In this document: positions 912-19,892 of the stretch, one piece after another
Layout: every line of letters starts with the position of its first letter
Numbering within the stretch: the first letter of the stretch is position 1
Notes under the pieces: model-generated
What the model saw: the letters and a program-made list of their open reading frames with translations, nothing else
The model's database searches: none
Told to the model about the DNA's origin: nothing
Made by a program: the position numbers and the translations under genes
Origin: Rhodoferax sp.
Lineage (GTDB): Bacteria; Pseudomonadota; Gammaproteobacteria; Burkholderiales; Burkholderiaceae_C
Reading direction: 5' to 3'
DNA: 47,604 bases
Assembly (NCBI GenBank): GCA_021737865.1
Contig: JAIPDC010000003.1
Coordinates: 1-47,604 of the forward strand

Positions 912-944
912 TACTTTATTACTTAATAGTTAAGTTGTAAAGTA
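912..944. promoter_or_regulatory. 33-bp nested palindrome, candidate MarR/TetR-type operator upstream of the monooxygenase gene
   Basis: TACTTTA-TT-ACTTAA-TAG-TTAAGT-TG-TAAAGTA; both arm pairs are perfect inverted repeats in an AT-rich leader. Confidence 0.6.
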
Positions 945-991
945 CTTTTTGACTGAGCAGGTTAAGTATTTACCCGCGCGCTCCAGGAAAG

Positions 992-3299: not shown

Positions 3300-3511
3300 G
3301 CGGAATTTCGCTGCAAGGCCACTCCAGGGCGCACAGAGCAGAATGCCCGGTTGATTGCGCTGCCACTGGCCCACGCGTGCGGGTTTCTACGGGGTCATGC
3401 ATGGTGTTGAATAAATAGTCTCACCAGAGACAGATCATCAGTGACAACCCTATCGGTGATTTCAATTGCACCAGCTATAAACAGCAAATAGAAATATTGA
3501 CAGGAGACGAT

Positions 3512-4387
3512 GTGCTGTTTCTTCAACTGGTGATCAGCGGGGTTGCACAGGGGTGCATCTATGGGCTGATTGCGCTGGGCTTCGTGCTGATCTACAAGGC
3601 GACCGAGACGGTCAGCTTCGCGCAGGGCGAGTTGATGATGCTGGGCGCCTTCGGTGGACTGGTTGGCATGACCATGCTCGGATTCCCCTATTGGCTGGCG
3701 GTCCTCAGCGCCGTGGTGGCGATGGCGGTATTTGGCGTGGTGCTGGAACGCGCCGTCATTCGCCCCATTTTGGGGCAACCGGCGTTTTCCATCGTCATGC
3801 TGACCATTGGCATTGGCTATGTTGCGCGTGGCCTGATTACCATGGTGCCTGGCATCGGCACCGACACGCAAGCGCTGCCGGTGCCCTACAAGGATGAGGT
3901 CTGGAACGTCGCTGGCCTGGTGCTCAACGTGGAGCACATGGTGGTCATCGGTGCCACGGCGGTGCTGTGCACATTGCTGTTTGCACTGTTTCGCTACAGC
4001 AAGCTGGGCATTGCCATGCAGGCCGCATCGCAAAACCAACTGGCCGCCTATTACATGGGCATTCCCGTGCAGCGCCTCAACGGTATCGCGTGGGGCTTGG
4101 CGGCTGCGGTTGCAGCTGTCGCCGGGTTGCTGCTGGCGCCGATTACGTTTGTGCACGCCAACATGGGATTCATCGGCCTGAAGGCTTTTCCTGCGGCGGT
4201 GGTGGGCGGCTTTGGCAGCTTGCCCGGCGCCATTGTGGGTGGGCTGATCATTGGCATTGTGGAGTCGCTCTCGGGCTTTTATTTACCGGATGGTTTCAAG
4301 GACACGGCGGCCTACGTGGTGGTACTGGTCATGCTGATGGTCAAACCCAATGGTTTGTTCGGCGAGAAGTTGAGGAAAAAAGTATGA
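3512..4387 (+). CDS. livH: branched-chain amino acid-type ABC transporter permease LivH
   Basis: GVAQGCIYGLIALGFVLIYKATETVSFAQGELMMLGAF; GTG at 3512 with GGAGA upstream; TTG 3497 also possible. Confidence 0.88.
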   Translation: MLFLQLVISGVAQGCIYGLIALGFVLIYKATETVSFAQGELMMLGAFGGLVGMTMLGFPYWLAVLSAVVAMAVFGVVLERAVIRPILGQPAFSIVMLTIGIGYVARGLITMVPGIGTDTQALPVPYKDEVWNVAGLVLNVEHMVVIGATAVLCTLLFALFRYSKLGIAMQAASQNQLAAYYMGIPVQRLNGIAWGLAAAVAAVAGLLLAPITFVHANMGFIGLKAFPAAVVGGFGSLPGAIVGGLIIGIVESLSGFYLPDGFKDTAAYVVVLVMLMVKPNGLFGEKLRKKV

Positions 4388-4424
4388 GACAGGAACACTG
4401 CGGCGTTCGACGTGCAGCCTGCCA

Positions 4425-4512
4425 GAGCTACCGCCGAGCCGGCTTTGCCGGGACGCTGGTAGCGCCCCCTGAGGGGGAGGCGCCAAAGGCGCTTCGGGGG
4501 GGGACTTCCTAA
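4425..4512. repeat. intergenic hairpin-rich repeat (separate family) between livH and livM
   Basis: CCCCC-TGA-GGGGG (4465-4477), GGCGCC-AAA-GGCGC (4479-4492), GCCGGCTTTGCCGGG; noncoding, low-complexity G/C stems. Confidence 0.6.
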
Positions 4513-4513
4513 T

Positions 4514-5590
4514 ATGCGTTTTATCTTCAAGACCGATTACGGCCAGGACGTCAACCTGGCCAAGCATGGCGGGCACGTGTTCTGGTACAGCGCGCTGATG
4601 CTGTTGCTGGTGGCTGCACCCTGGGTGTTTGCCGAGTACTGGCTGGCACAACTCACCCTGGTGCTGATCTATTCCATTGCCGGCCTGGGTCTGATGCTGC
4701 TGGCGGGCTTTACCGGCCTGTTCTCGATGGGCCACGCAGCCTTTCTGGGCGTTGGGGCGTACACCCATGCGGTGCTCACCAACATGGGTGTACCCTTCCC
4801 CATCGCACTGGCCTGCGCCGCCGGGCTCTCTAGCGCAGTGGGCCTGGTGGTGGGATTGCCGGCCCTGCGTGTCAAGGGCATCTACCTGGGCATTGCCACG
4901 CTGTCGTTTGGTTTCATTGTGGAAGAGGTGCTGGCCCGCTGGGAGTCGGTTACCGGCGGCAATGCGGGCATCCACATCAAAAAGCCCGACATCTTTGGCT
5001 GGGTGCTCAGCAGCGGTGAGCAGTTTTACTTTCTGTGTCTGCTGATTACGGTGGTCGCCACGCTGGGGATATTGAACCTGCTGCGCTCCCCCACCGGGCG
5101 CGCATTTGTGGCCATCCGCGACTCCGAAATTTCGGCGCAGAGCATGGGCATTCACCTGGCCTACTACAAGACCCTCTCGTTTGCGATTTCGGCCGGCTTT
5201 GCCGGCGTGGCCGGCGCGCTGTACGCCCACAACCTGCAGTTCATATCACCCGACCAGTTCAACATCCTGCAATCGATTGACCTGCTGCTGATGATCGTGA
5301 TTGGCGGCGCAGGCTCGGTGCACGGGGCATTTCTGGGTGCGATTTTTCTCATCACCATGCCGCAGGCGATTGCCATCATCAAGGACTATTTGCCGGCCAC
5401 CATTGGCCAGGCACCAGGTCTGCAGGGCCTCGTCTACGGCGCGGTGCTGATCGCCTTTGTGCTGTTTGAGCCCATGGGGCTCTATGGGCGCTGGCTGAAG
5501 ATTCGCACCTATCTGCAGATGTTTCCGTTCTATCGCAAGGGCATGTTCAAGCGACAAAAGTCCTTCCAGAAATCCGATCGCCTGAAATGA
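4514..5590 (+). CDS. livM: branched-chain amino acid-type ABC transporter permease LivM
   Basis: 358 aa; GLGLMLLAGFTGLFSMGHAAFLGVGAY and GGAGSVHGAFLGA typical of LivM. Confidence 0.9.
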   Translation: MRFIFKTDYGQDVNLAKHGGHVFWYSALMLLLVAAPWVFAEYWLAQLTLVLIYSIAGLGLMLLAGFTGLFSMGHAAFLGVGAYTHAVLTNMGVPFPIALACAAGLSSAVGLVVGLPALRVKGIYLGIATLSFGFIVEEVLARWESVTGGNAGIHIKKPDIFGWVLSSGEQFYFLCLLITVVATLGILNLLRSPTGRAFVAIRDSEISAQSMGIHLAYYKTLSFAISAGFAGVAGALYAHNLQFISPDQFNILQSIDLLLMIVIGGAGSVHGAFLGAIFLITMPQAIAIIKDYLPATIGQAPGLQGLVYGAVLIAFVLFEPMGLYGRWLKIRTYLQMFPFYRKGMFKRQKSFQKSDRLK

Positions 5591-5598
5591 CGAACATA

Positions 5599-5677
5599 AC
5601 CCCCACGCTTGTCACTTCGTGTACTACGCTGCCCCCGAGGGGGCCCTCACGCCTAGGGGCGGCCCTGCGGCGTTCAA
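5599..5677 (+). repeat. Family-2 interspersed repeat, copy A
   Basis: acccccacgcttgtcacttcgtgtactacgctgcccccgagggggccctcacgcctaggggcggccctgcggcgttcaa; matches copies B and C. Confidence 0.8.
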
Positions 5678-5680
5678 TCT

Positions 5681-6577
5681 ATGACTGATACCCTTCTTTC
5701 TGCCAAGAACCTGAGCGTGCGCTTTGGTGGCGTGCTGGCGGTCAACAACGTGAGTTTTGACGTCAAGCAGGGTGAGGTCTTTACCCTGATCGGCCCCAAC
5801 GGCGCGGGCAAAACCACGGTGTTCAACCTGATCAGCCGCATCTACACCCCCACCATGGGCGAGATCGACTTTGCCGGCCCCAATGGCATGCTCAAACTCA
5901 CCACACAGCCACCGCAAAACGTGGCCTCGCTGGGCATTGCGCGCACGTTCCAGAACATCGAGTTGTTCGAGCATGCGTCCGTGCTGCACAACCTGCTGAT
6001 TGGCCGCCACACCCACCGCGTCACCGGGCTGTGGCAAGACTTTTTCTTCACATCCAAAGCGCGCGAGGCCGAACTCAAGGCGCGCGAGAAAGCCGAGGAG
6101 GTGATTGAATTCCTGAGTTTGCAGCACTACCGCGACACGTTCGTGGCTGGATTGCCTTACGGCGTGCGCAAGGTGGTCGAATTGGCGCGTGCCCTGTGCA
6201 CGGAGCCAAAGTTGTTGCTGCTGGACGAGCCCTCCTCCGGGCTGAACGTGGAGGAAACCGACGACATGGCGTTCTGGATTCAGGACATCAAGCACGAGCT
6301 GGGCATTACCGTGCTCATGGTAGAGCACGACATGTCGCTGGTGTCCAAAGTGTCAGACCGGGTGCTGGCAATGAACCAGGGCGAGATGCTGGCGATGGGC
6401 ACGCCGCGCGAGGTGCAAAACGACCCCGGCGTCATTGAAGCCTATCTGGGCTCAATTGACGATGTGTCGTCACTCAGAAGGCACTTGAACGCCGCAGGGC
6501 CGCCCCAAGGCGTGATGGACCCCTCGGGGGGCAGCGCAGTACGCGCAGCGACAAGCGTGGGGGCACATATCCCATGA
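5681..6577 (+). CDS. livG: ABC transporter ATP-binding protein LivG, with repeat-encoded C-terminal tail
   Basis: GPNGAGKTTVFNLIS Walker A; LLLLDEPSSGLN Walker B; last ~31 codons overlap repeat copy B. Confidence 0.9.
   Translation: MTDTLLSAKNLSVRFGGVLAVNNVSFDVKQGEVFTLIGPNGAGKTTVFNLISRIYTPTMGEIDFAGPNGMLKLTTQPPQNVASLGIARTFQNIELFEHASVLHNLLIGRHTHRVTGLWQDFFFTSKAREAELKAREKAEEVIEFLSLQHYRDTFVAGLPYGVRKVVELARALCTEPKLLLLDEPSSGLNVEETDDMAFWIQDIKHELGITVLMVEHDMSLVSKVSDRVLAMNQGEMLAMGTPREVQNDPGVIEAYLGSIDDVSSLRRHLNAAGPPQGVMDPSGGSAVRAATSVGAHIP
6485..6563 (-). repeat. Family-2 interspersed repeat, copy B (inverted, inside 3' end of livG)
   Basis: Reverse complement CCCCCACGCTTGTCGCTGCGCGTACTGCGCTGCCCCCCGAGGGGTCCATCACGCCTTGGGGCGGCCCTGCGGCGTTCAA aligns to copy A nearly throughout. 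Confidence 0.82.
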
Positions 6578-7371
6578 GCGCACAACCACCCGCCATCAGC
6601 GATTTGCCCGTTCTGAAGCTGCTCAACGTCGAAAGCGCCTACGGCCCCATCAAGGCGATCCGCGGGGTCAGCCTGCAGGTGCGTCGCAGCGAGATTGCCA
6701 CCGTGCTGGGCTCCAACGGCGCGGGCAAGACCACCATCCTGAAGACCATCTCGGGCATCATCGACCCGCGCAAGGGCTCGATCGAATTCAAGGGCCAGGA
6801 CATCACCGCCAGAGACCCCGCTTTCATCGTGCAGCAGGGGCTGAGCCACGTACCCGAAGGGCGCGAAGTGTTTCCCCTGCTGAGCGTGCACGACAACCTG
6901 CTGATGGGCGCCTACACCCGCCGTGACCGTGACGGCGTGGCGCGCGACATGGAGGCGGTGTTTGGCTACTTTCCGATCCTGAAAGAGCGTGGCGACCAAG
7001 CCGCGGGCCTGCTTTCGGGCGGGCAGCAGCAAATGCTCGCCATATCGCGCGCGCTGATGGCCAACCCCGATCTGATTTTGCTCGATGAGCCCAGCCTGGG
7101 CCTCTCGCCCAAGCTCACCAAGGAGATTTTCGAGATCGTGGTGCGCATCAACCGCGAGCACGGCACCACCATTTTGCTGGTGGAACAAAACGCCAACATG
7201 GCGCTCAACGCCTCCGACTACGGCTATGTGCTGGAGAACGGTCGCATCGTCATGGAAGACACCTGCGCCCGTCTGCGCGAGAAGGACGACATCAAGGAGT
7301 TCTACCTGGGGCTGAAGGAAGACGGCGTGCGCGGCGAGCGGCGCTGGAAAAAGAAAAAGACCTGGAGATGA
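6574..7371 (+). CDS. livF: ABC transporter ATP-binding protein LivF
   Basis: GSNGAGKTTILKTISG, LLSGGQQQMLAISRALM, LILLDEPSLGLSP; ATGA overlap with livG. Confidence 0.92.
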   Translation: MSAQPPAISDLPVLKLLNVESAYGPIKAIRGVSLQVRRSEIATVLGSNGAGKTTILKTISGIIDPRKGSIEFKGQDITARDPAFIVQQGLSHVPEGREVFPLLSVHDNLLMGAYTRRDRDGVARDMEAVFGYFPILKERGDQAAGLLSGGQQQMLAISRALMANPDLILLDEPSLGLSPKLTKEIFEIVVRINREHGTTILLVEQNANMALNASDYGYVLENGRIVMEDTCARLREKDDIKEFYLGLKEDGVRGERRWKKKKTWR

Positions 7372-7376
7372 ATATA

Positions 7377-7455
7377 ACCCCCACGCTCCACCGCTACGCG
7401 GGTCGCTGCCCCCCGAGGGGTCTAATTTGCCTTGGGGCGGCCCTGCGGCAAATTG
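7377..7455 (+). repeat. Family-2 interspersed repeat, copy C
   Basis: acccccacgctccaccgctacgcgggtcgctgccccccgaggggtctaatttgccttggggcggccctgcggcaaatt. Confidence 0.8.
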
Positions 7456-7501
7456 CCGTTCCCACCGAGTTACTTCGCTGGAGCGCTTTTAGGACAGCAG
7501 C

Positions 7502-9358
7502 ATGACCAGACTCTGGGATACCTCAAGCATCCAGCCTTGCGATGACATCGTCATGGCGGGCGAAACCATACCCGCGGTGTTCTGGAACGCGGTCGCCAAA
7601 CGCGGCCCCACTGTCTGGATGCGCCAAAAGCATCTGGGCCTGTGGCGCAGCTGGACCTGGAACCAGACCGCCGACGCCGTGCGCGAGATTGCCGCTGGCC
7701 TGATCAGTCTGGGCTTTGCCAAGGGCGACTGCGCCTCCATTCTGGCCAACACGGTGGTCGAGTGGGTCTGGGCCGACCTGGCCGTGTTGTCGGCAGGTGG
7801 CGTGTCCAACGGCGTCTACCCGACCGACGCCGCCTCACAGTTGCAGTTTTTGTGCGAAGACTCCCGCACCACCGTGCTGTTTGTCGAAGATGACGAGCAA
7901 CTCGACAAGGCGCTGGAAGTGCGCGCCGGCTTGCCCCTGCTGCGCAAAGTTGTCGTGTTTGACATGGAGGGCCTGCGGGAGTTGAACGACCCAGGCGTCA
8001 TCAGCCTGGACGCACTGCGCGCATTGGGGCGGGACTACCTGCAGCAGCATCCCGGAGCGGTGGAGCAGCGGGTGCAAATGTGCAAACCCGAAGACCTGGC
8101 CATCCTGGTCTACACCTCGGGCACCACCGGCAAGCCCAAGGGCGCCATGCATTTGCACCAGGGTCTGGTGTTCACCGTGCGCGGCTACAACACGCTGGTG
8201 GCGCAGGATGAGCGCGACGAGCGGATGTGCTTTCTGCCGCTGTGCCACATCGCCGAGCGCATGGGGGGCGAGTACTTTGCGCTGTACACGGGGGCCAAAC
8301 TCAACTTCGTCGAAAACCCCGAGACCATTCCGGAAAACGTGCGCGAGATTGCCCCCACCGTATTCACGGCCGTGCCCCGGGTATGGGAAAAGTTTTATTC
8401 GGGTGTGATGATTTCGCTCAAAGAAGCGGGCATGGTCCAGCAGGCCGCCTACGCCTGGGGCATCGGCGTGGGCACTGCCATTGCCGAGCGCGTGCTGGCG
8501 GGGCAGCCGGTGAGCGCCTGGCTGAAGATCCAGTTCACGCTGGCGCGGTGGCTGGTGCTGAACAACGTGCGCAAGCTCATTGGCATTCACCGGGCGCGCT
8601 TTCTGGTGACCGGTGCAGCGCCCATTTCGCCCGACCTGGTGCGTTGGTACATGGCCCTGGGCCTGCCCATGCTGGAGGTTTGGGGCATGACCGAAACCTG
8701 TGGCGCGTCCACCGGCGTGCCCGCCAGCAAGATGAAGCCCGGCTCCATTGGCCCGGCAGCTGCCTACAACGAGGTCCGGCTGGACCCGACCACCGGCGAG
8801 ATTCTGGTGCGCGGCAAAAATGTGTTTGCCGGCTACCTGAACCTGCCCGAGAAAACTGCCGAGACCATCGACTCTGACGGTTGGCTGCACACCGGTGACG
8901 TGGGTGTAGTGGATGCAGACGGCTACTACCGCATCACCGACCGCATGAAGGACATCATCATCACCGCGGGCGGCAAGAACGTAACGCCCAGCGAGCTGGA
9001 AAACGATCTCAAGTTTTCGCCCTACATCACCGACGCGGTGGTCATTGGCGACAAGCGCCCCTACCTGGTGGCCATCGTCATGATCGACCAGGAAAACGTG
9101 GAAAAATTCGCACAAGATGCCGATGTACCGTTTAGCAACTACGCATCGCTGACCCATTCCGCCGAGGTTCAGGCGCTGATCCAGAGCGAGTTGGACCGGG
9201 TCAACAAGAAATTTGCAAGGGTGGAGCAGATCAAGAAATTCTTCCTGCTGGAAACCCAGTTGACCGCCGAAGACGAGGAACTCACCCCCACCATGAAGCT
9301 CAAACGCAAGCTGGTCGAGGCCAAGTATGCTGCGCAAATCGAAGCCATGTACCGCTAA
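7502..9358 (+). CDS. long-chain-type acyl-CoA synthetase / AMP-dependent ligase
   Basis: AMP-binding motif YTSGTTGKPKGAM; GWLHTGDVGVVDADGYYRITDRMKDIIITAGGKN. Confidence 0.92.
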   Translation: MTRLWDTSSIQPCDDIVMAGETIPAVFWNAVAKRGPTVWMRQKHLGLWRSWTWNQTADAVREIAAGLISLGFAKGDCASILANTVVEWVWADLAVLSAGGVSNGVYPTDAASQLQFLCEDSRTTVLFVEDDEQLDKALEVRAGLPLLRKVVVFDMEGLRELNDPGVISLDALRALGRDYLQQHPGAVEQRVQMCKPEDLAILVYTSGTTGKPKGAMHLHQGLVFTVRGYNTLVAQDERDERMCFLPLCHIAERMGGEYFALYTGAKLNFVENPETIPENVREIAPTVFTAVPRVWEKFYSGVMISLKEAGMVQQAAYAWGIGVGTAIAERVLAGQPVSAWLKIQFTLARWLVLNNVRKLIGIHRARFLVTGAAPISPDLVRWYMALGLPMLEVWGMTETCGASTGVPASKMKPGSIGPAAAYNEVRLDPTTGEILVRGKNVFAGYLNLPEKTAETIDSDGWLHTGDVGVVDADGYYRITDRMKDIIITAGGKNVTPSELENDLKFSPYITDAVVIGDKRPYLVAIVMIDQENVEKFAQDADVPFSNYASLTHSAEVQALIQSELDRVNKKFARVEQIKKFFLLETQLTAEDEELTPTMKLKRKLVEAKYAAQIEAMYR

Positions 9359-9407: not shown

Positions 9408-10622
9408 ATGAAGAAAAAAACCACTCTAGCCCTCGCAGCCATTGCGCTGACAGCTACCGTTTCGATAGCAGCTGAACAGCAGGGCGTGACCAAGACCGAG
9501 ATTCTGGTCGGCAGCATTCAGGACCTCTCGGGCCCGCTGGCCGGGTATGGCAAGCAGCTGCGTAACGGCATGCAACTGCGCGCCGAAGAGGCCAACGAGC
9601 AAGGTGGCGTGCACGGCCGCAAGATCAAGCTGGTTGTGGAAGACGACGGCTATGACCCCAAAAAATCGGTACTGGCGGCGCAAAAGCTGGTGAACCAGGA
9701 AAAGATCTTCATCATGGCCGGCCACCTGGGAACCGCCCAGAACCTGGCGGCCATGCCGGTGCAGTTCGAAAAAAATGTGGTCAACCTTTTCCCGCTGACC
9801 GCCGCGCGTGAAATGTACGAACCACTGCACCGCCTGAAATACTCGTTTGCCGCGCCCTACTTTGATCAGATTCGCATTACCTTGCCGAAAATGGTCAAAG
9901 ACAAGAATGTGAAGAAAGTCTGCTCGATTTACCAGGACGACGACTTTGGTCTGGAAGTGCATCGCGGCGCTGAGGCAGGCCTCAAGACCATCGGCGTGGA
10001 ACTGACCGAAAAGACCAGCTTCAAGCGCGGGGCCACTGATTTCTCGTCCCAGGTCGCCAAGATGAAGGCTGCAGGCTGCGAGTTGGTGGTGCTGGGCACC
10101 ATCATCCGCGAGACCATCGGCACCATTGGCGAGTCGCGCAAGACCGGCTTCAGCCCCATCTTCCTGGGCTCCAGCGCCGCCTACACGGACCTGATCCACA
10201 AACTCGGTGGTAAGGCGATGGACGGCATGTACGCCACCATGACGGTCGCCAACCCCTACCTGGACGATGCCTCGCCCGCCATCCGCTTCTGGGCGGCCAA
10301 GTACAAGACCAAGTTCAACGAAGATCCTGCGGTGTTCTCGGTCTACGGCTATCTGGTGATGGACTCGTTCATTGCCGCGGCACAGAAAGTCGGCCCCAAC
10401 CTGACCTCGGACAACTTCGTCAAAACCATGGACACCATGAGCTTTACCGACCCCTTGTTTGGCAGCGCCCCATCGTCATACACCGCCACCAAACGCCTGG
10501 GCAGCGATGCGTCACGCCTGTCGCAGATTCAGGACGGAAAGTGGAAAGTCGTGTCGGAATACCTGAGCAGCGCATCGGTAGCAGCCGAAGCAGCACCTGC
10601 CAAGGCACCGGCGAAGAAGTAA
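9408..10622 (+). CDS. ABC transporter substrate-binding protein, LivK/Peripla_BP_6 type
   Basis: MKKKTTLALAAIALTATVSIAAEQQGVTKTEILVGSIQDLSGPLAGYGKQ; signal peptide; AGGAGA RBS at ~9395. Confidence 0.9.
   Translation: MKKKTTLALAAIALTATVSIAAEQQGVTKTEILVGSIQDLSGPLAGYGKQLRNGMQLRAEEANEQGGVHGRKIKLVVEDDGYDPKKSVLAAQKLVNQEKIFIMAGHLGTAQNLAAMPVQFEKNVVNLFPLTAAREMYEPLHRLKYSFAAPYFDQIRITLPKMVKDKNVKKVCSIYQDDDFGLEVHRGAEAGLKTIGVELTEKTSFKRGATDFSSQVAKMKAAGCELVVLGTIIRETIGTIGESRKTGFSPIFLGSSAAYTDLIHKLGGKAMDGMYATMTVANPYLDDASPAIRFWAAKYKTKFNEDPAVFSVYGYLVMDSFIAAAQKVGPNLTSDNFVKTMDTMSFTDPLFGSAPSSYTATKRLGSDASRLSQIQDGKWKVVSEYLSSASVAAEAAPAKAPAKK
9415..9470 (-). repeat. Candidate diverged Family-1 repeat copy within the signal-peptide codons
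   Basis: Reverse complement TGCTATCGAAACGGTAGCTG(18 nt)GGGCTAGAG; same motif order and exact 18-nt spacing as the other copies. Confidence 0.5.
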
Positions 10623-17096: not shown

Positions 17097-19892
17097 CTAC
17101 TTGCTTGCGGATGCTGCCCCGGCAAAGGTACCGGCACGCACCAGCACCATGCTTTCGGGTTTGAGGTATTTCCTGATGACCGCATTCACCTGCTGGTCAC
17201 TCAGTGCGTTGACGCGGGCAGGAAATTCATCCAGCCAGTTCACGTCATAGCCCCGATTCACGGCACCCAGCAGGGCGCCCGCCATGCCGCCGGTTGTGGC
17301 GAGGTCTGTTTTAAACGAGCCAATCAGGTTGCTCTTGCGTGCGCTGATTTCGGCAGACGTGGCACCCGCGTCATACCAAAGCTTGAGTTGGCGCTGGGTC
17401 GAGGCAATACCCTTGTCCAGCAAGCCGGGCGCGAAGGTAGCAGAGATGCGCCAGTCGCCATCGTTGACCATATCGCCCGCCAGGTTGGCGCGCACGTCAT
17501 ACGTCAGGCCTTCCTTGTCGCGTACGTTGGTCATGAGACGACCGGTAAAGCCGCTGCCCAGAATGGCCGTGGCCAGACGCAACGCCTGGTAGTCGGGGTC
17601 GCTGTAACGCAGGCCGCTGGGCTGGCCCATGATGATGGAGACGCTGGTCTTCCCGTCCATCGCCACATCCTGCCTGGCAGCCGCAGCGGGGTCTGCGGGC
17701 TTTGCCGCACGCACCACGGCCTTGCCGCCGGTCCAGCCAGCGAACGACCGCGCGATTTCGGCTTGCAGGGCAGGCATGTCCAAGTCACCTACCAGCACCA
17801 GGGTCATGGCGGCGGGGCCGTAGTTGGCCTGGTGAAAGGCCACCACATCGTCCAGCGTGGCGGCCTCAATGGCGGCCAGCATGTCATCAGGTGACACGGA
17901 GCGGGTGGGGTGGCCCACCGGGTAGGTCAAACGGTTAAACGCATCGGCAGCGCGAAAATCGGTGCTCTCCAGGCTGCGCTTGATACCGCCTGCCAACTGC
18001 TTCTTGACCTTGGCAAATTCTTCCGGCGCCAAAGCCGGTGTGCGCAGTTGCTCGGCAATCAGACCCAGCACCAGCGGTGCGTCTTTCTTCAGGGACCTGG
18101 CGCTGATGTCCAGCAGATCCGTGCCCACCCGGAAGTTGATGGCCGCACCCACGGCTTCAAGCTTTTCAGCAATGGCAAACTTGTCCTGACTCTTGGTGCC
18201 CTGGTCGAGCAACATGGCGGTCAGCGTTGGCACGGCGGGGTTGCCACCCGCCCCCTGGGAGCGTCCGGCAGGCAGCGAGCCGCGCACGGTCACAACATCC
18301 TTCACACCGGTGGGATAGGTGATGACGTCCACGCCGGCAATCTTGATGCGCTTGGCATTCGGGGCAATCTTGGTCCCGGTCTGGGCCGATGCCGCGCGTC
18401 CCGCCGGTTCTTTGGCTGCAGCCAGGACTGGCGAGATGCCCGCATGGAGGCTCGGATCGCGGTAGTAGTAGGGCCCATCAGCCAGCGAGGACTTAAAACC
18501 GGTCTTGGCAGCGGGCTTGGCGGCACCGCCAGCAGGTGCGACCCCGGCGTTGGTCGGGATGAACCAGCCGGTGGTGCTGTGGTCTTCGCTCAAATATTTG
18601 TTCGCCACGCGCTGGATGTCCGCTACGGTGACCTTTTTGGTGGCTTCGTCAAGGCCGTAGAACAGGGTCCAGTCGCCCGCGCTGATGAACTCGTTGATGT
18701 TGCCGGCAATGCCAAACGAGCCATCGAGCTTGAAGGCGGCATCCGCAGCATTCTTGGCCGCAGCGGCTTGTAACTCGACTTCGGTCACACCGTCTTTCTT
18801 CAGGCGTTCAATCTCCTGCACGATGATGGCTTCCACCTCGTCATGCTTGGCCCCGGGGGCCAATGGTGCAAACACGATGTGGATGGACGGGTCTGCAAAA
18901 ATTCCCATCTCGCCTTCCACGCCGGTGGATAGATTCTTGTTGGTGATGGCTTTGTACATGCGGCTGTTCTTGCCGTCGGCGAGGATGGCGCTCATCAGCA
19001 TCACAGGGGCAAAGTCAGCGTGTGTTGCAGCCGGAATCTTGTGCCCCACGGCGACCACACCGAGTTGACCGGCGCGCTTGACCACGGTGCGGCGTGCGCC
19101 ATTTTGCTCAGGCTCTTCGGTGTACAGCGCGGGGATGGGTTTGGGCGAACGGGGGTAGACGCCAAACGACTTCTTGACCAGTTCCAGTGCCTTCACCGAC
19201 TCAAAGTCGCCAATGATGGTGACCGTGGCGTTGTTGGGCCAGTAGTAGGTGTTGTAAAACTCGCGCAGCTTTTCAATCGACACTTTTTCGATGTCGCTGC
19301 GGTGGCCAATGGTGCTGTGGTGGTAGGGATGCGCCACGAACGCGGTTTGGTAAATCTCTTTGTACAACGCCTGGATGGGGGAGTTCTCGCCGCGCTCGAA
19401 CTCGTTGCGCACCACCGTCATCTCGGGTTTGCGGTCTTCCTCGCGCAGCAGCAGGTTGCGCATACGGTCGGCTTCCATGCCCATGACCGTGGCCAGGTGC
19501 TCGCTGCCCATGTTGGCGTAGTAATTGGTGCGGTCCAGCCAGGTGGTGGCGTTGTACTGCGCGCCCGTGCGCTCGAGCAACTGGTCGACGTTGTTGCCTT
19601 TTTCACGCGTGTGGTTCTTGGAGCCCTTGAACATCAGGTGCTCCAGCAGGTGCGTGGCACCGGTGGTACCGGTCACCTCGTTCTTGGAACCGACCCGGTA
19701 GGTCACCATGAAGGTCAGCGTGGGGCTGGAGTGCTCGGGCATCAGCAGTACCTGAAGACCGTTGGATTGAAGGGTGTATTCATCAATACTGCCCACGGTT
19801 TTGACGTGGGCATAGCCTTTGACCGCCACCGGTGCAGCTTGTGACAGCAACGATGAGAGCAGCAGGCCAGCAGTAAGTAAAAGTCGTTTCAT
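17097..19892 (-). CDS. M16 family zinc metallopeptidase, two-module secreted
   Basis: THLLEHLMFKGSKNH (HxxEH) with NEFERGE; signal peptide MKRLLLTAGLLLSSLLSQAAP; ATG 19892. Confidence 0.9.
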   Translation of the reverse strand: MKRLLLTAGLLLSSLLSQAAPVAVKGYAHVKTVGSIDEYTLQSNGLQVLLMPEHSSPTLTFMVTYRVGSKNEVTGTTGATHLLEHLMFKGSKNHTREKGNNVDQLLERTGAQYNATTWLDRTNYYANMGSEHLATVMGMEADRMRNLLLREEDRKPEMTVVRNEFERGENSPIQALYKEIYQTAFVAHPYHHSTIGHRSDIEKVSIEKLREFYNTYYWPNNATVTIIGDFESVKALELVKKSFGVYPRSPKPIPALYTEEPEQNGARRTVVKRAGQLGVVAVGHKIPAATHADFAPVMLMSAILADGKNSRMYKAITNKNLSTGVEGEMGIFADPSIHIVFAPLAPGAKHDEVEAIIVQEIERLKKDGVTEVELQAAAAKNAADAAFKLDGSFGIAGNINEFISAGDWTLFYGLDEATKKVTVADIQRVANKYLSEDHSTTGWFIPTNAGVAPAGGAAKPAAKTGFKSSLADGPYYYRDPSLHAGISPVLAAAKEPAGRAASAQTGTKIAPNAKRIKIAGVDVITYPTGVKDVVTVRGSLPAGRSQGAGGNPAVPTLTAMLLDQGTKSQDKFAIAEKLEAVGAAINFRVGTDLLDISARSLKKDAPLVLGLIAEQLRTPALAPEEFAKVKKQLAGGIKRSLESTDFRAADAFNRLTYPVGHPTRSVSPDDMLAAIEAATLDDVVAFHQANYGPAAMTLVLVGDLDMPALQAEIARSFAGWTGGKAVVRAAKPADPAAAARQDVAMDGKTSVSIIMGQPSGLRYSDPDYQALRLATAILGSGFTGRLMTNVRDKEGLTYDVRANLAGDMVNDGDWRISATFAPGLLDKGIASTQRQLKLWYDAGATSAEISARKSNLIGSFKTDLATTGGMAGALLGAVNRGYDVNWLDEFPARVNALSDQQVNAVIRKYLKPESMVLVRAGTFAGAASASK

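Follow-up and report, generated by a model that had tools for sequence, protein, structure and literature searches.

In Arthrobacter sp. Rue61a, anthranilate-CoA catabolism is reportedly controlled by MeqR2, a PaaX-type repressor that is released by anthraniloyl-CoA. The locus described here would share that catabolism with MeqR2, but the latter belongs to a PaaX/GntR-like family with another operator. CouR of Rhodococcus jostii RHA1, a MarR repressor, controls an aromatic CoA-thioester pathway with p-coumaroyl-CoA shown to be its ligand, and its box (cATTGA-N5-TCAATg) overlaps the -35 element, a single box serving a divergent marR/enzyme pair (PMC4737184). MarR_73/IadR of Variovorax paradoxus CL14 represses aromatic catabolism leading to anthranilate, senses indole-3-acetate, and has its site in the leader of its own operon, with MarR_50 as an orphan partner (PMC9613470), and PaaX-related regulators are mentioned in PMC3534580. 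Our locus resembles the CouR system in combining a MarR gene with an aromatic CoA-thioester pathway, in an inverted repeat over the -35 element, and, at some related loci, in a box shared by divergent marR/enzyme pairs, whereas it differs in site sequence (TANTTNA-N4-TNAANTA), pathway, and ligand, which we infer. With MarR_73/IadR it shares a MarR repressor, catabolism towards anthranilate, an operon-leader site, and a related host (Variovorax), although no CoA ester is sensed there and the protein is weakly similar in sequence (7kfo, E 1.4e-07). The closest solved sequence relative of the MarR protein encoded here is 3boq (MarR-family; E 3e-16), whose entry names no ligand, operator, or pathway. 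A search of the open-access literature, with most subscription papers outside its scope, found no description of a MarR operator for anthranilate-CoA genes.

The window, a 47,604-nt stretch of Rhodoferax DNA, is an entire contig (G000:C157) of a 79%-complete assembly and starts at a contig break, so that the genes downstream were out of sight of the initial annotation. The gap between an ABC exporter gene (stop codon at 992) and a hydroxylase gene (ATG at 810), both on the minus strand, holds a 33-bp nested palindrome (plus strand: TACTTTA-TT-ACTTAA-TAG-TTAAGT-TG-TAAAGTA) with 15-nt arms (13/15 pairs, 87% complementary) and a 3-nt centre; the arms and the TAG centre are just as originally described. 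Judging from sequence comparison, this palindrome very probably combines an operator with a core promoter, both serving an operon that degrades anthranilate aerobically via 2-aminobenzoyl-CoA (Table 1).

Table 1 Coordinates of observed and predicted features in the window
Feature	Position	Strand	Basis
Putative 2-aminobenzoyl-CoA monooxygenase/reductase (salicylyl-CoA 5-hydroxylase family), N-terminal 270 aa, rest on C67	1..810	-	NF006101
33-bp nested palindrome, putative operator and promoter composite	912..944	-	arm pairing, shuffle tests
Predicted -10 hexamer TAAAGT, equal to the outer right palindrome arm	913..918	-	fixed 17-bp spacing, relatives
Predicted MarR operator, 18-bp inverted repeat TACTTTA-CAAC-TTAACTA	927..944	-	symmetric matrix score 17.0
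Predicted -35 hexamer TTTACA, within the operator	936..941	-	promoter scan
Additional conserved box GGGTAAATACTTA, 18 bp from the operator on its upstream side	963..975	-	clade alignment

The operon continues on another contig. In an alignment with L037, an ortholog from Rhodoferax, contig C67 in reverse orientation resumes the same hydroxylase gene about 73 bp after the window fragment ends, a join that is based on synteny, without overlapping sequence. On C67, the remainder of the hydroxylase/OYE reductase is followed by a short-chain dehydrogenase (SDR), MarR, enoyl-CoA hydratase, acyl-CoA dehydrogenase, and AMP-forming ligase, then by five branched-chain-type ABC transporter genes, a thioesterase, a RidA-like protein, an acyl-CoA dehydrogenase, and a hemerythrin, and finally by kynureninase, tryptophan 2,3-dioxygenase (TDO), LysR, and an amidohydrolase. 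Kynureninase and TDO also lie beside five orthologs (L180, L186, L189, L190, and L056), and the cluster is predicted to encode a tryptophan-kynurenine-anthranilate-2-aminobenzoyl-CoA route. The fragment in the window (first 270 codons, 810-1) matches the bifunctional salicylyl-CoA 5-hydroxylase/oxidoreductase family across the N-terminal third (NF006101, E 1e-122), and the C-terminus on C67, read by eye, is OYE-type. This fusion of an FAD monooxygenase with an OYE reductase, together with TDO, KynU, and AMP-ligase genes in the cluster, is what would be expected of a 2-aminobenzoyl-CoA monooxygenase/reductase. Because TDO, kynureninase, CoA ligase, and beta-oxidation genes are present, that predicted function appears the better name for the enzyme. 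The label "salicylyl-CoA hydroxylase-like" given by the initial annotation fits the family but is probably not the best name. No salicylate pathway genes were recognised on C67, the content of which points to anthranilate.

The reading of the palindrome as a MarR operator was upheld, but its size was not. The full 33 bp fails as the operator unit outside the window clade, and the conserved unit is the 18-bp repeat (927-944). Its form is that of a MarR operator: such inverted repeats are short, about 16-20 bp, and their half-sites are spaced by one turn of the helix (here, centres separated by 11 bp). A strict ungapped palindrome scan of ortholog leaders caught few sites; it took alignment, plus an 18-bp matrix of symmetric design (TANTTNA-N4-TNAANTA) whose twelve seed sequences all came from other lineages, to recover them. 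The score of the window site corresponds to p 0.0003 among shuffled leaders. Using the matrix trained without the window clade, the site was found at p<0.01 in 85 of 115 ortholog leaders. Sorted by ortholog identity, the counts were 7/7 (>=90%), 7/12 (75-90%), 2/3 (60-75%), 56/63 (54-60%), and 13/30 (<54%), those for some lower-identity loci being partly circular because the twelve seeds come from them, which does not apply to the window-clade result. Leaders of orthologs with 92-98% identity align across the site. Symmetry is 5/7 in the window and 7/7 in several orthologs; within the window clade it is just 4-5/7, with the exception of L143 (7/7), and in L142 the matrix chose the overlapping site at palindrome positions 16-33 instead of 1-18. 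Upstream of orthologs the site is conserved, and it tracks the head of the operon or marR. The further copies envisaged within the cluster did not turn up: no second operator scoring >=12 was found in the window and C67 besides 927-944.

The repeat overlaps promoter elements (TTTACA-17-TAAAGT vs 927-944). This is the sole sigma-70-like match that a promoter scan returned at 750-1100 (9/12, minus strand). Comamonadaceae-type relatives carry TTGACA-N17-TAAAGT at the same positions, TAAAGT occurring in 13 other such loci, whereas Steroidobacter/gamma-type loci have TTGACA-N17-TATAAC, with TATAAC in place of TAAAGT. In these comparisons, the far outer arm of the palindrome is best read as a -10 box, and the 33-bp symmetry would for the most part result from an operator joined to a -10 box, although the -10 hexamer may at the same time provide a third half-site for MarR (912-918). 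Rhodocyclaceae-type leaders share a conserved GTTGACT upstream of the operator (seen in L053, L057, L060-L062, L064, L065, L067-L074, L088, and L090). Because this TTGACT is conserved upstream of the operator, it suggests a promoter that is shifted relative to the same operator, which would then lie in its spacer.

A MarR gene, which the initial annotation suggested looking for in the rest of the cluster, is found there, on the contig that continues the operon (C67:17782-18333), two genes downstream; its product is 90% identical to the Rhodoferax ortholog (L037:13131-13685) and exceeds the curated cut-off for PF01047 (51.4 vs 24.6 bits). Most of the recognition-helix stretch (LMVxGxNVTxxTD) is conserved. 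Of the 83 loci whose flanking sequence was long enough, 44 have both a close MarR and the site, six MarR alone, 20 the site alone, and 13 neither (44/6 vs 20/13: Fisher p 0.007, for leaders that share ancestry, so that sampling is not independent). Four of the six MarR-only loci are Thiomonas-type (L032-L035), in which the site is absent before the hydroxylase and lies about 2.2 kb upstream, heading ligase-marR-hydroxylase. A perfect TAGTTTA-AATA-TAAACTA stands ahead of marR in L059. L027, L041, L042, and L200 have the site in the gap that separates divergently oriented marR and hydroxylase genes. Remote marR genes have a like site in their own leader in L196, L198, L199, L201, and L202 (15.7-20.8 vs background <=6.2); the site is weak in L197 and L025 (7.2 in the latter) and was not found in the remote marR leaders of L194 and L195. 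L057 and L183 have the site, yet the P0002-like marR in each genome lacks it; in Azoarcus-type loci the site is present and the MarR gene immediately upstream is more divergent, and L191 and L076 have MarR, with no site found. By comparison across gene orders and genomes, the operator type appears to follow this MarR clade, and the MarR gene in the operon together with the conservation and relocation of the site supports the proposed control of the hydroxylase operon by MarR.

Two further arrangements were observed. In Polaromonas-type L027 (9789-9806, 9887-9904) and L200 (1310-1327, 1408-1425), the gap between the divergent marR and hydroxylase genes contains two strong operators at a distance of 98 bp; a third copy is present in L027, 6 kb away (3822-3839). 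An alphaproteobacterial locus (L094) carries identical perfect operators (TATTTTA-AGCT-TAAAATA) 8.5 kb apart (9953-9970 and 18464-18481), the second near a minus-strand marR.

Alternative explanations of the repeat were weighed against these data. The leader is locally 69% AT, a composition in which palindromes might arise by chance, but this is almost certainly not their origin here: 13/15 pairing was rarely reached by shuffles of the 181-bp intergenic gap (P = 0.0018) or of the AT-rich stretch 901-965 (P = 0.001), and orthologs retain the site, whose position shifts with their gene order. It is also the sole 15+3+15 inverted repeat with >=13/15 pairs in the whole window (dinucleotide-shuffled windows average 0.13), and a pattern search of the 3.5-Mb assembly with three mismatches allowed gave no further match (i.e., single-copy). 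The repeat could instead work in RNA, as a leader hairpin or as a terminator of the ABC exporter gene, after whose stop it comes, and read as RNA it folds at -8.4 kcal/mol (z -3.2). However, the stem is AT-rich without a T-run, a terminator scan found none there, and the conserved 18-bp DNA repeat also precedes operons with other upstream genes or occupies divergent gaps, making a role in RNA very improbable. Binding by another regulator, such as the cluster LysR encoded near kynureninase/TDO or an unseen TetR, would fit the loci that have the site without a close MarR, but is improbable given the remote marR genes with the same site in their own leader and the sites between divergent marR and hydroxylase genes.

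The full 33 bp might also form a single operator in which two MarR dimers bind in tandem (944-927 and 929-912), its resemblance to a -10 box being secondary. Within the window clade, the inner pairs (10-15/19-24) show modest covariation, remaining complementary in 38 of 48 cells (permutation p 0.012), and TAAAGTA hardly varies, even at base 33, a position that is dispensable for a -10 box; Rhodocyclaceae-type leaders retain TAAA at the same offset despite their apparently shifted promoter (TTGACT upstream). On the other hand, the second site (16-33) scores 2.1-10.7 compared to 8.5-20.9 for the first, the outer-arm pairing shows no covariation (p 1.0), and Steroidobacter-type loci have TATAAC as the right arm, a replacement that fits a -10 box. 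The window-clade covariation and second-site scores come from eight related sequences only. We regard a tandem operator as unlikely but not far-fetched. Under the preferred reading of one operator plus -10 box, an overlapping, weaker second half-operator (912-929) may still recruit a second dimer in the window clade, which would account for the symmetrical look of the whole 33 bp.

The predicted operator and promoter follow a known arrangement and are well supported by comparison. A MarR dimer would place one winged helix on each half-site, cover the -35 element and spacer, and block RNA polymerase, thereby repressing the operon and marR itself. Upon anthranilate activation, one of the intermediates of the pathway, with 2-aminobenzoyl-CoA as the likeliest, would bind MarR and release it. 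By analogy, aryl-CoA control of MarR in the manner of CouR or HcaR, as initially proposed, is plausible and the inducer is probably 2-aminobenzoyl-CoA; a CoA-thioester ligand is favoured because of CouR and the Arthrobacter PaaX-type repressor said to respond to anthraniloyl-CoA. A broader proposal, to which we give somewhat less than an even chance, is that these sites define a conserved but so far undescribed MarR regulon that governs aerobic catabolism of anthranilate-CoA in alpha-, beta-, and gammaproteobacteria, with a repressor that senses 2-aminobenzoyl-CoA and, in the window clade, a -10 box that serves as an extra half-site. For the aerobic route through 2-aminobenzoyl-CoA, the analysis supplies a predicted operator, promoter, and regulator. 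With the conserved motif, the regulon could be annotated in many genomes of proteobacteria, and an anthranilate biosensor could be developed from it.

In most members of the window clade, a second conserved box precedes the operator at a distance of 17-20 bp. Its consensus, GGGTAAAYACYTA, is matched exactly by five of the eight members, while L019 and L143 have a degenerate version and L099 has none; the box is possibly an activator site. As a genome-wide regulon box GGGTAAAYACYTA was rejected, one-mismatch matches in its own genome being no commoner than those of a reversed control, and the matches that were checked lie inside genes or ahead of a pyrophosphatase-like ORF. On the strand opposite to the hydroxylase, the window also contains a second catabolic-looking cluster (3497-9358, plus strand), composed of a branched-chain-type ABC transporter with an AMP-forming acyl-CoA ligase.
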